Assembly: GCA_903912525.1 (NCBI GenBank)
Contig: CAIWHK010000032.1
Span: forward strand, 124,001 to 188,000
DNA: 64,000 bases
Source of the DNA: an uncultured bacterium
GTDB taxonomy: Bacteria > Krumholzibacteriota > Krumholzibacteriia > LZORAL124-64-63
Direction of reading: 5' to 3'
The notes beneath the pieces are model-generated. The model was not told the DNA's origin, did no database searches, and saw only the letters and a program-made list of their open reading frames with translations. Below, one piece after another: positions 40,370-61,940 of this stretch (position 1 is its first letter; every line of letters starts with the position of its first letter). A program made the position numbers and the translations under genes.

Positions 40370-41854
40370 CTAGAACTGCTTGCGCATACGCGCACTCAAA
40401 ATCCCCATCTGTTCCCTGTATTTGGCCACCGTACGCCGGGCAATTTTCAGGCCCCCTTCCTGGAGCATATCGACAATTTTCTTGTCCGACAAAGGCCGGG
40501 CCGTGTTTTCGGCGTCAATGATCTCCCGGATCATGATCTTGACGGCCTTGGCCGACACGTCCTCGCCGGTGTCGGAGTCCAGGCCGGCGCTGAAGAAGAA
40601 CTTCAGGGGGAACACCCCGCGCGGGGTCTGCACGTATTTCTGACGTGTCACGCGCGAGACGGTCGACTCGTGCATCCCAATCGTCGAGGCGACCTGCTGC
40701 AGGGTGAGCGGGCGCAGCGCGATGGCGCCCTTCTCGAAGAACTCGCGCTGCTCACCGACGATCGCCTCCATCACCTTGATCATGGTGCGGCGGCGCTGCT
40801 CGATGGTCTTGATGACCCACTCCGCATGACGCTTGCGTTCGTCGATGAACTTGACCGCATCCTCGCTCGTCTGGACGGTGCCCTCGTAGGCCTGGCTCAC
40901 CCGCAACCGCGGGATATTGCCGTCATTCAGGTAGACGGCGTACTCGAGCCCGTCCTCGTCGACCTTCACGACCTCCAGGTCGGGCACGATGGCGCGCGCG
41001 CCCACGGTGTTCAGCGAGAGACCCGGTCGCGGATCGAGTTCACCGATGCGCTGGGCGACTTCCTGCACCTGCTTGACCGTCAGGTGCAGGTCGCGGGCGA
41101 TGTCGTTGAACTTGTGGTTCTTCAGGGCCTCGAAATGTTCCTTGACCACCGTGGCCTCGTCCGATTCGGCCAACCCGTGGGCCTCCAGCTGCAGCAGGAG
41201 GCATTCCTGGAGGCTTCGCGCAGCGACGCCGGGCGGGTCGAACCCCTGCACCACGCGGAGCACCGCCTCGACGGCCGCCTGGGAGACGTCGAAGTAGGTC
41301 GCGATCTCCTCCACGCTGCAGCCGAGGAGCCCGTCCTCGTTGAGACAGCCGATGATGTACTCGCCGATCGAGCGCTCGATTCCATCGGGCACGGCCAGGT
41401 GCAGCTGGTCGGTCAGGTCCTCCTGGCCGCTCGGCACGTATTTCTGGGGACGTTCAAGTTCGTCCTCTTCGTCCCAGCCCTGGTCCAGCGACACGGACTG
41501 GAAGCCGTCGTCGAAACTGTCGGCCCAGTCGCGCCGCTCTTCCATGTTGTCACCCACGCCGTCGTCGGCGCCGTCGCGCAGATCCTCGTCCGCATCCGGC
41601 CCTTGCTCGGAATCCGGATCACGCTCGTCGGCCGCCGCGCCGTCCGGGCTGTCCTCGGACTGGTCGCTGCCGTCCGGTTCCTCGTCCGCTTCGATCTCTT
41701 CGAGCAGCGGATTGCCCTGGAGTTCCAAGCGCAGGATCTGCTCGAGCTCCAGCGTCGGCACCTGCAGCAGCTTGAGGGCCTGTTGCAGGCGCTGGGTCAT
41801 GACCAGCTGCTGGCGCAGCTGCATGCTCTGTCGCAATCCGAGATTCGGTGCCAT
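40370..41854 (-). CDS. rpoN: RNA polymerase sigma-54 factor
   Basis: A 494-residue alternative sigma factor that needs AAA+ activators. Region I is Gln/Leu-rich (LRQQLVMTQRLQQALKLLQVPTLELEQ), region II very acidic (about 55-130), then the core-binding domain and the C-terminal RpoN box ARRTVAKYR for -24 recognition. An activator with GAFTGA is encoded at 58986-60515, and four -24/-12 promoter candidates occur in this window, so the system is likely active. Located between lptB and hpf as in proteobacteria. Confidence 0.97.
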   Translation of the reverse strand: MAPNLGLRQSMQLRQQLVMTQRLQQALKLLQVPTLELEQILRLELQGNPLLEEIEADEEPDGSDQSEDSPDGAAADERDPDSEQGPDADEDLRDGADDGVGDNMEERRDWADSFDDGFQSVSLDQGWDEEDELERPQKYVPSGQEDLTDQLHLAVPDGIERSIGEYIIGCLNEDGLLGCSVEEIATYFDVSQAAVEAVLRVVQGFDPPGVAARSLQECLLLQLEAHGLAESDEATVVKEHFEALKNHKFNDIARDLHLTVKQVQEVAQRIGELDPRPGLSLNTVGARAIVPDLEVVKVDEDGLEYAVYLNDGNIPRLRVSQAYEGTVQTSEDAVKFIDERKRHAEWVIKTIEQRRRTMIKVMEAIVGEQREFFEKGAIALRPLTLQQVASTIGMHESTVSRVTRQKYVQTPRGVFPLKFFFSAGLDSDTGEDVSAKAVKIMIREIIDAENTARPLSDKKIVDMLQEGGLKIARRTVAKYREQMGILSARMRKQF

Positions 41855-58985: not shown

Positions 58986-60515
58986 TCACGAGGCCCCGCC
59001 CGCGATGAGGTCCACCATCCAGTAGCGGGCGATTTTCTTGTACAGCCCCTGCCGCGAAAGGCCCAGACTGCGGGCAGCGGCGGCCTTGCGGCCGTTGCAG
59101 GCCGCGATCGCCTTGCGGATGAGGTAGCGCTCGAGCAATTCACCGGCCTGGTCCAGCGCGCGCAGCGTGCCAAGGTCCGTGGCCTCCACCAGGTGGGGAT
59201 CGGCGCCCCTCACCTCGCCGGACAGATGCGTCAGGCGGATCACGGCCTCGTCGGGATAGAGGGCCGAAAGGCGTTGGGCCTCGTTCTCGAGTTCGCGCAC
59301 GTTCCCTGGCCAGCGCCAGCGCTGAAGCGCCGAAAGTGCATCCTCGGAAATCCTAATTTTGTCGATGTTTCGACCATTTTTCTTCAGGAAATACGCGAAC
59401 AGCGGCGCGACGTCCTCCGGGCGATGGCGAAGCGGCGGGATCACGATCGCCACGACTTTCAACCGGTAGAAGAGGTCCAGCCGGAAGCGACCGTCGCGGA
59501 TCTCGGCGGTCAGGTCCTTGTGGGTGGCCGACACGAACCGCAGGTCGACCGGGACACTTTTGAGGTCGCCGATCCGCCGGACCTGCCGTTCCTGCATGAC
59601 GCGCAGGAGCTTGATCTGGAGCGCCAGGGGCATGTCCCCGATCTCATCCAGGAAGAACGTCCCGCCGCTGGCCGCCGCGAGCAGCCCCTTCTTTTCGGAC
59701 GCCGCCCCGGTGAAGGCGCCGGCGCGGTGCCCGAAGAGCTCCGACTCGAACAGCGTCTCGGGCAGCGCCGCGCAGTTCTGGGCGATGAACGGCCCCGCCT
59801 GCCGGTCGCTCGCCACGTGCAACGCGTGCGCGATGATCTCCTTGCCGGTGCCGCTCTCGCCGTGCAGCAGCACGTTCACGTCGCTGCGTGCGATGTTGGC
59901 CAACCGCAGGCCCAGACGCACCATCTCGGCGCTGACCCCCACGCAGCCGGGAATGCCCGGCACGGTCGCCGGTCGTGGCAGCGGCACGACCAGGGCCTCT
60001 TTTGCTCCCGAAGCCCCGCCAGGACGCACTGTGGCGTTCGCTGCCGCGACGCGGCCCGGAGCCACTGCCGGCAACGGGAACAGTGTGGGCTGTCCCGGGG
60101 ACTCGCCGGGCAGGGGCCCCTGCGGCTCGAACAGGCCGAGCACCGGCACCAGTCGCGGCACCAGACGCTGGCCCCACAGGAAGATGCCCTCGCGCCAGGG
60201 CTCGGCGGCGTCGAACCAGATCCCCAGGCAGCCGACCACCGCCCCGCGCTGCCGCAGGGGCTCGACCCAGAGGGCGGTGTCCCGTCCGCGACGGATGAGT
60301 TCCTCGCGATCATCAGCCATCGCCCGCAGGAGCGCGCCGAGCGGCGGCTTGCCCGCCAGCCCGTCGCGACGCGCGTTCCCGCAGTCCCAGGTCTTCAGCA
60401 ATTGCAGCGGCGCGGCCGGATCCTGCGCGCTGCGGCGCACGACCCAGACGGCGGCGCCCCGGCCGCCGTGCGGGAACGCGCGCAGTTCCTCGTCCCAGAA
60501 TGCCCGGTGATCCAT
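58986..60515 (-). CDS. Sigma-54-dependent transcriptional activator (bEBP), orphan
   Basis: A 509-residue enhancer-binding protein. The N-terminal 200 residues form a sensory region (GAF-like in feel; no receiver domain), a Pro/Gly-rich linker, then the AAA+ domain with Walker A HGESGTGKEIIAHAL (about 218), the sigma-54 contact loop HRAGAFTGA (about 266), Walker B GGTFFLDEIGDMP, and the arginine-finger region. The C-terminus has a Fis-type helix-turn-helix (AAAARSLGLSRQGLYKKI). No histidine kinase is adjacent, so it senses a ligand or protein. Start ATG with GGAGGAGCC. Candidate own promoter and enhancer lie upstream. Confidence 0.95.
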   Translation of the reverse strand: MDHRAFWDEELRAFPHGGRGAAVWVVRRSAQDPAAPLQLLKTWDCGNARRDGLAGKPPLGALLRAMADDREELIRRGRDTALWVEPLRQRGAVVGCLGIWFDAAEPWREGIFLWGQRLVPRLVPVLGLFEPQGPLPGESPGQPTLFPLPAVAPGRVAAANATVRPGGASGAKEALVVPLPRPATVPGIPGCVGVSAEMVRLGLRLANIARSDVNVLLHGESGTGKEIIAHALHVASDRQAGPFIAQNCAALPETLFESELFGHRAGAFTGAASEKKGLLAAASGGTFFLDEIGDMPLALQIKLLRVMQERQVRRIGDLKSVPVDLRFVSATHKDLTAEIRDGRFRLDLFYRLKVVAIVIPPLRHRPEDVAPLFAYFLKKNGRNIDKIRISEDALSALQRWRWPGNVRELENEAQRLSALYPDEAVIRLTHLSGEVRGADPHLVEATDLGTLRALDQAGELLERYLIRKAIAACNGRKAAAARSLGLSRQGLYKKIARYWMVDLIAGGAS

Positions 60516-60551
60516 GGCTCCTCCCGTCGGGTGGGGGTACGGGACTCCTCA

Positions 60552-60568
60552 GGCACATGCCGTGCCCC
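60552..60568 (-). promoter_or_regulatory. Sigma-54 promoter candidate for the activator gene
   Basis: Minus strand GGGCACG-GCAT-GTGCC; the GGCACG block is exact and GG-N10-GC spacing is right, but the first base, one T of TTGC and the following base differ. Predicted start near 60541, 25 nt before the ATG with its ribosome site well placed. The core is itself a 5-bp palindrome (GGCAC...GTGCC). Confidence 0.5.
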
Positions 60569-60650
60569 GCGGCGAGTGAGCGCTCGGCTGTCTTGCAAGA
60601 AGCGAAGGCAGAGGCATTTGGCGGGACGGAGATCGCGTCGCCACGAACGC

Positions 60651-60715
60651 GTGTCCCATTTCGTGTCCCATCGCCGGGGTTATCCACAAGCGGCGCGGGA
60701 CACCCGATGGGACAC
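60651..60715. promoter_or_regulatory. Four mirrored GTGTCCC sites, candidate enhancer/operator
   Basis: GTGTCCC at 60651-60657 and 60663-60669 (direct, 12-bp period) and the reverse complement GGGACAC at 60697-60703 and 60709-60715 (again 12-bp period). The two pairs mirror each other about position 60683, where TTATCCACA (a DnaA-box match, 60680-60688) lies. Relative to the predicted start site the sites span about -110 to -174, the usual distance for a sigma-54 enhancer. Confidence 0.65.
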
Positions 60716-60759: not shown

Positions 60760-60800
60760 ATCATCAGGGCAGGCTCACATGATCACCAGGGCAGGCTCAC
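60760..60800. repeat. 22-bp tandem duplication across the purM stop codon
   Basis: ATCATCAGGGCAGGCTCAC (60760-60778) recurs at 60782-60800 with one mismatch. The second copy encodes the last residues of PurM on the minus strand and the first copy lies just after its stop, so the gene's 3' end was duplicated. Confidence 0.75.
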
Positions 60801-61796
60801 GCGCTGCTCGCCTGCGCACACCTCGCCGATCAGCCGAGCTTCCACGCCCGGCACGCCGCCGGGATCGCAGTCGGGCGGCGTGATCACGACAAGGCCGATG
60901 CCCATGTTGAACACGCGGTACATCTCGGGCGGGGCCACGCCCCCCAACCGGCTGATGAGGTGGAAGATGGGCAGCGGAGCCCAGGCCGAAGGATCGATGT
61001 GCACGCACAGGCCGTCGGGCACGACGCGCGGGATGTTGTCGTAGAAGCCGCCACCGGTGATGTGCACCAGTCCGTGCACCGCCGCGCGTCCCCAGGCTTC
61101 CCAGATTGCGCGCACGGCCGGCAGGTAGCTGCGGTGGACCGCCAGCAACGCATCGCCGACGGTGGCGCCGCCCAGTTCAACCGGCGCATCGTCGACCCGC
61201 AGGCCGGCGCGATCGAGCAGCACGGCCCGCGCCAGCGAATAGCCGTTCGTGTGCAGGCCGGTACTCGGCAGCCCCCAGACACGATCGCCGGCCTTGATCG
61301 CGCTGCCGTCGATGACATGCTCGGGCAGGACGCGCCCGACGATGGTCCCGGCCAGGTCAAACTCGCCGGCAGCATAAACGCCGGGCATCTCGGCCGTCTC
61401 GCCGCCCAGCAGCGCGCAGCCGTTTTCGCGGCAAGCCTTGGCGAAACCGGCCAGGACCTCGGGCAGGACGGCCTCGTCGAGCTTCGCCGTGGCGAAGTAG
61501 TCCAGGAAGAACAGCGGCTCGGCGCCCTGCACCAGGATGTCGTCGACGCAGTGGTTGACCAGGTCCTGCCCCACGGTGTCATAGCGGCCGCACAGGGAAG
61601 CCACCATCACCTTGGTGCCGACACCGTCGACGCTCGCCACCAGCAGGGGCTCACCCGGCGACGGCTGGAACAGCCCGCCGAAGGCGCCGATCTCGTTGCG
61701 GACGCGCGCGTCCCAGGTCGAGCGGACGTGGTCGCGGCTGCGGGCCAGCGCCCGCGTGGCGGCGTCGATATTGACCCCGCTGTCGGCATACTTCAT
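60783..61796 (-). CDS. purM: Phosphoribosylformylglycinamidine cyclo-ligase (AIR synthetase)
   Basis: A 337-residue ATP-dependent enzyme closing the imidazole ring in purine synthesis. Motifs YADSGVNIDAA (N-terminus), SVDGVGTKVMVA, LVNHCVDDILVQGAEPLFFLDY, LGGETAEMPGVY, STGLHTNGYSL and HITGGGFYDNIPRV are typical of PurM. Start ATG 61796 with AAAGGA upstream. A 22-bp tandem repeat covers its end. Confidence 0.96.
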   Translation of the reverse strand: MKYADSGVNIDAATRALARSRDHVRSTWDARVRNEIGAFGGLFQPSPGEPLLVASVDGVGTKVMVASLCGRYDTVGQDLVNHCVDDILVQGAEPLFFLDYFATAKLDEAVLPEVLAGFAKACRENGCALLGGETAEMPGVYAAGEFDLAGTIVGRVLPEHVIDGSAIKAGDRVWGLPSTGLHTNGYSLARAVLLDRAGLRVDDAPVELGGATVGDALLAVHRSYLPAVRAIWEAWGRAAVHGLVHITGGGFYDNIPRVVPDGLCVHIDPSAWAPLPIFHLISRLGGVAPPEMYRVFNMGIGLVVITPPDCDPGGVPGVEARLIGEVCAGEQRVSLPW

Positions 61797-61940
61797 GGCG
61801 GTCCTTTCGCGGGACACCGGGACACGGGAACAGGGGACCGGTACCTTGGGTCGGGCAGGTGCCGCTGGACGCAGGACCGCCGGCCAGCGGGCATGATAGG
61901 CCCACTCGGCCGGCGGTTCAAGGAGGGTCGGGCGCCGCGT

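Follow-up and report, generated by a model that had tools for sequence, protein, structure and literature searches.

A mirrored GTGTCCC array upstream of a sigma-54 activator gene: a probable self-activated enhancer whose half-site recurs at two predicted small RNA loci

The window, that is the whole stretch of 64,000 nucleotides that was analysed, contains a spacer between purM (60783–61796) and the gene for a sigma-54 activator of 509 amino acids, a bEBP of the NtrC family (58986–60515), all on the minus strand. In this spacer the heptamer GTGTCCC occurs four times within 65 bp, at 60651–60657 and 60663–60669 on the plus strand and, facing these, at 60697–60703 and 60709–60715 on the minus strand; coordinates and strands were re-checked and agree with the preliminary description, which had reported two mutually facing pairs with a 12-bp period each. 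Over the whole window GTGTCCC was found 11 times as compared to 12.4 expected occurrences, which amounts to no enrichment, so that it is the clustering that is unusual: nowhere else in the window do 65 bp contain four copies of any heptamer, and when the spacer was shuffled 20,000 times with its dinucleotides preserved, four copies were reached only once. The activator gene is preceded by a candidate -24/-12 promoter for sigma-54 (GGGCACGGCATGTGCC, 60552–60567, minus strand) with GG-N10-GC spacing. The array lies about 84–148 bp upstream of the -24 box, a spacing that suits an enhancer, and with the promoter at this position the sites are located 110–174 bp upstream of the predicted start (~60541), as had been proposed. 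At the centre of the array lies TTATCCACA (60680–60688, plus strand), the core of which, GGAYAACC, is conserved in the genus and which exactly matches the DnaA-box consensus of E. coli. A DnaA box was dismissed as a general part of such arrays, since the exact box is present at only two of the 44 promoters compared below.

The assignment of the gene downstream of the array as a sigma-54 activator is borne out by its domains, comprising an N-terminal domain, an AAA+ domain with GAFTGA (Pfam Sigma54_activat, E=1.2e-65), an AAA lid and a C-terminal Fis-type HTH (HTH_8, E=3.9e-11). The GAFTGA loop is intact in the translation (ELFGHRAGAFTGA), and the recognition-helix region of the HTH (LGLSRQGLYKKI) is conserved. 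For the first ~190 residues there is no match in Pfam, no receiver domain was matched in the Pfam domain search and the protein falls short of the cut-off for all NCBIfam models shown; its closest solved chain is ZraR (1ojl). The AAA+ domain has about 18 matches in the organism's own genome, and the DNA-binding domain of the sigma-54 factor itself (rpoN, 40376–40852, minus strand) is encoded in the same window. The 5' leader of the activator gene with its ribosome-binding site (GTACCCCCACNCGACGGGAGGAG, 60516–60540, minus strand) is near-identical in four congeners, a conservation that exceeds the needs of a ribosome-binding site alone and suggests post-transcriptional control of the activator. 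In one relative (G007:C92:33421-45966) the activator gene was matched in two parts of a single contig separated by about 11 kb, as if split by an insertion or a misassembly. On the other side of the spacer, purM has a sigma-70-like promoter, read from the sequence as TTGAAC-N17-TATCAT (61893–61921, minus strand), downstream of which the purM leader carries a second tandem GTGTCCC pair with an 8-bp period (61811–61817 and 61819–61825, minus strand). This pair is partly kept in congeners and is possibly a further site of the same regulator, which could let it affect purM.

Alignment of the spacer from the organism's own genome with those of three congeners (G001–G003; protein identity 87, 87 and 82%) revealed four conserved blocks, namely the heptamers, the central GGAYAACC, the -24/-12 element (GGCACG-N4-TGCC) and a stretch of 25 nt that surrounds the ribosome-binding site, outside of which the spacer has diverged. 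All three congeners keep all four sites in a mirrored array of four to five copies together with the -24/-12 element, and the conservation in close relatives that the preliminary description had named as a check is thus observed. One congener (L003) carries three left and two right heptamer copies and another has an 11-bp heptamer period, both of which fit protein half-sites rather than an RNA hairpin. A correctly spaced sigma-54-like site, often CGGC-N8-CTGCA, is also found 41–127 bp before the start of most other orthologues in the family, and clustered TGTCCC/GGGACA copies lie upstream of the activator gene in seven genera (g1, g2, g5, g7, g8, g9 and g12). The activator promoter in g10 lacks an array, although one is present in this genus at a second locus (sRNA1, see below), while g3, g6 and g13 contain an activator orthologue and no exact TGTCCC arrays, the motif having drifted or being missing. 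Judged by this pattern of sequence conservation, the array is a real, conserved control element before the activator gene.

Among the 38 genomes of the family, clustered TGTCCC/GGGACA copies upstream of sigma-54 promoters recur at three loci: the activator gene, an RNA before ilvE (sRNA1) and an RNA after an HD-domain gene (sRNA2). A three-copy pattern, TGTCCC-N3..8-TGTCCC-N4..34-GGGACA, run over 80 genomes with the reversed pattern as control, gave 45 matches, confined to 17 genomes that all belong to this family, against a single control match. The matches fall into 28 distinct places, 22 of which are one of the three recurrent loci (ten at activator/purM, eleven at sRNA1, ten of these upstream of ilvE, and one after the HD-domain gene); the remaining six lie elsewhere in genus g7, mostly without a clear promoter. 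Genome G044 carries extra TGTCCC arrays near the genes for pyruvate kinase and triosephosphate isomerase and a GH92-like gene (L225, L226, L227, L231), a lineage-specific expansion mostly without a clear -24/-12 element. At least two exact copies are present within 260 bp at all 41 listed promoters, which are not an unbiased sample because some loci were found via their arrays, whereas at most one copy is present at each of 18 further sigma-54-like sites in the window. Copy number per promoter ranges from two to six. GGGACA is the top enriched hexamer upstream of the promoters, occurring at 43 of 44 (6.2 expected) in a set that includes own-genus promoters with only degenerate copies at sRNA1, and the half-site can be extended to G-TGTCCC-R-Y. 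Facing copies tend to be about 24, 35, 45 or 56 bp apart, corresponding to a period of 10.5–11 bp (R=0.54, p ~1e-7, which is only nominal because copies share loci and ancestry), while same-direction spacings vary between 7 and 13 bp.

The suggestion that the spacer holds the motif of a regulon hence gains support from the clustering of a (G)TGTCCC(R) half-site upstream of the sigma-54 promoters that serve two further conserved transcription units; the targets found are candidate small RNAs rather than protein operons. In the organism's own genome, for which a search for paired GTGTCCC near other -24/-12 elements had also been suggested, exact tandem pairs (4–8 bp between hexamers) failed as a regulon marker, being restricted to the array spacer and two unrelated places; at the sRNA2 promoter of this genome exact copies occur with another spacing. 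Since such pairs are near-unique in this genome, the regulon becomes visible only with looser spacing. A perfect GTGTCCC...GGGACAC palindrome (G000:C46 and G001:C262) was set aside, as it follows directly on a stop codon and has the appearance of a common terminator-type hairpin. A literature search for TGTCCC or GTGTCCC as a known motif returned nothing relevant.

At the sRNA1 locus, a strong -24/-12 promoter (e.g. CGGCACCATCTTTGCT) lies behind the array, often with one extra motif copy a few bases before the -24 box, and precedes an RNA of about 135 nt with three covarying hairpins. Every hairpin has an RGCGA loop, and the third runs into a U-rich tail. Pairs changed on both sides number 21 of 34, and the covariation score is 0.344, whereas shuffles gave 0.190 and slid controls no more than 0.151. 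According to a covariance model, sRNA1 occurs essentially once per genome in eight genera (g1, g2, g5, g7, g8, g9, g10 and g12), and outside these the model gave only three weak matches (G008, G051 and G058), GC-rich stretches lacking array and promoter that were taken as chance. In the organism's own genome sRNA1 lies at about 4.6 kb of contig C26 (G000, L258) behind the promoter CGGCACCGGATATGCT, at which all copies of the site carry one mismatch. Most genera share a conserved block, CTTGATTTCA...TGACGAAATTT (L184-L203), located after the sRNA1 terminator and before ilvE, which is possibly ilvE's own promoter.

Whether sRNA1 acts on its own or as part of the ilvE transcript bears on what the activator would control. 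In all genera but one, ilvE follows on the same strand after about 130 nt and sRNA1 is closed by a terminator, as would be the case for an attenuating, riboswitch-like leader through which the activator regulates ilvE. In contrast, sRNA1 in G004 stands alone with its own array and promoter and a convergent gene opposite, and it is therefore tentatively read as a small RNA and not as a leader of ilvE. In this genome the contig with ilvE breaks off 101 bp ahead of the gene, so that a second copy of sRNA1 might lie there. We regard the leader function as a possibility, albeit a rather doubtful one.

The sRNA2 locus shows a similar order, with the array and the -24/-12 element downstream of the HD-domain gene; about 40 nt further on come a hairpin and then a second one. 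The first hairpin exposes an invariant CUGGGAGG loop, all ten of its stem pairs change on both sides and its covariation score is 0.669, as against 0.275 in shuffles. The copy in the organism's own genome is found at about 51.5 kb of contig C19 (G000, L280, L297), where exact motif copies, spaced differently, precede the promoter TGGCCGGTCGCTTGCA. A pattern combining promoter and loop detects sRNA2 also in g4 and in four species of g6, in which the upstream motif has drifted, with the GTGTC core partly kept. Neither RNA was matched in an Rfam search, which gave one sub-threshold hit elsewhere in a flank; sRNA1 and sRNA2 are previously undescribed conserved structured RNAs belonging to no family of the RNA library searched.

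The array, the -24/-12 element, the conservation of both, their recurrence at three loci and the covarying RNA structures are thus features that can be read from the genomes, and the presence of the same element at three loci most likely points to a regulon made up of the activator, which would turn on its own gene, and of two regulatory RNAs that it would likewise turn on. In such a circuit a multimer of the activator would bind the helically phased (G)TGTCCC(R) half-sites and loop to the sigma-54 RNA polymerase at 60552–60567, raising its own transcription, and the same protein would also drive sRNA1 and sRNA2 from their sigma-54-dependent promoters. We consider it probable that the array is the activator's own sigma-54 enhancer with a regulon of these two RNAs; the autoregulated enhancer of the preliminary description is likewise favoured by the conservation of the array in congeners and by clustered copies at the promoters of activator orthologues in six more genera. 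Binding by this very activator would be the simplest interpretation, since its own promoter is among the three recurrent loci, its HTH is conserved and the array-bearing genera nearly coincide: of the eight genera with an array at sRNA1, all except g10 also have one at the activator promoter. The exception of g10, the one-mismatch copies at the sRNA1 promoter of the organism's own genome and the variable same-direction spacings speak against this scheme. That the protein activates rather than represses and that the two RNAs act in trans is what we infer from this arrangement.

The main rival to self-binding is that another bEBP or DNA-binding protein occupies the enhancer and that the activator gene is merely one target in a cascade. 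This would account for the genera with an orthologue and no arrays and for the array genomes without a detectable orthologue, although the six array-bearing genomes in which none was found are fragmentary (65–94% complete). A half-site geometry unusual for a Fis-type dimer also points in this direction. However, the recurrent loci number only three and include the activator promoter, autoregulation offers the simplest reading, and no other activator gene lies beside an array at the loci examined, so that binding by a different protein appears unlikely. A function as dispersed, REP-like intergenic repeats without regulatory role could explain the few arrays (mostly in G044, G017 and G045) at other genes without a clear -24/-12 element; it is very improbable given that 22 of the 28 places belong to three orthologous sigma-54 loci that are maintained across genera and show phased spacing, and that the spacer beyond the sites is neither conserved nor repeated. 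That the array is an RNA hairpin or terminator at the 3' end of purM can practically be discounted, for although its arms form inverted repeats directly after the purM stop, the bases between the heptamers do not covary in pairs, a T-tract is absent, copy numbers in L003 are unequal on the two sides and single and tandem copies occur at unrelated genes.

With its proposed autoregulated enhancer, the activator resembles NtrC, NorR, ZraR and PspF, which act at their own enhancers, in the GAFTGA-containing AAA+ domain, the HTH_8 domain and several sites about 100 bp upstream of a -24/-12 promoter. It differs from them in that one heptamer is used in tandem and facing clusters with variable, helically phased spacing and no fixed palindrome, whereas a classical bEBP operator is a palindrome of 16–19 bp, and in that its N-terminal domain has no Pfam match. 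To our knowledge, activator-driven sigma-54 small RNAs have been described mainly in proteobacteria; GlmY and GlmZ are sigma-54-dependent with a bEBP, and CrcZ carries a repeated motif, of which the repeated RGCGA loops of sRNA1 are reminiscent. The bEBP LuxO (and SypG) is described to drive the sigma-54-dependent Qrr small RNAs of vibrios (PMC10162802), CbrB the sigma-54-dependent RNA CrcZ of Pseudomonas (PMC6296734), and GlrR is linked in enterobacteria to the two small RNAs GlmY and GlmZ, one of which is a decoy (PMC7073468). By analogy, the circuit proposed here would functionally resemble these three; it is not a member of any of them, because no receiver domain was matched in the activator, unlike in LuxO, and because sRNA1 and sRNA2 match no Rfam family, be it Qrr, GlmY/GlmZ or CrcZ, the last of which differs also in motif and lineage. 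If the proposal holds, it represents an independent case of an activator with small RNAs and an operator architecture of its own, and it leads from the observation of a single promoter to a regulon that can be tested in a little-studied lineage, with a defined half-site and three candidate promoters per genome.

How the two RNAs might act together is a more speculative matter. The CCUCC 5' end of sRNA1 with its three RGCGA-loop hairpins and the exposed loop of sRNA2 could form, together with the activator, a family-specific circuit based on CCUCC:GGAGG pairing, in which sRNA2 would be a decoy of sRNA1 in the manner of GlmY/GlmZ; we put this forward very tentatively, and perhaps the activator's own leader pairs in the same scheme as well. 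As a separate observation, the activator leaders in g12 (L007, L215, L216, L218, L219) contain CCCTCC(T/C)(G/A), which resembles the 5' end of sRNA1 and is complementary to the sRNA2 loop, making an RNA feedback on the activator possible in this genus.
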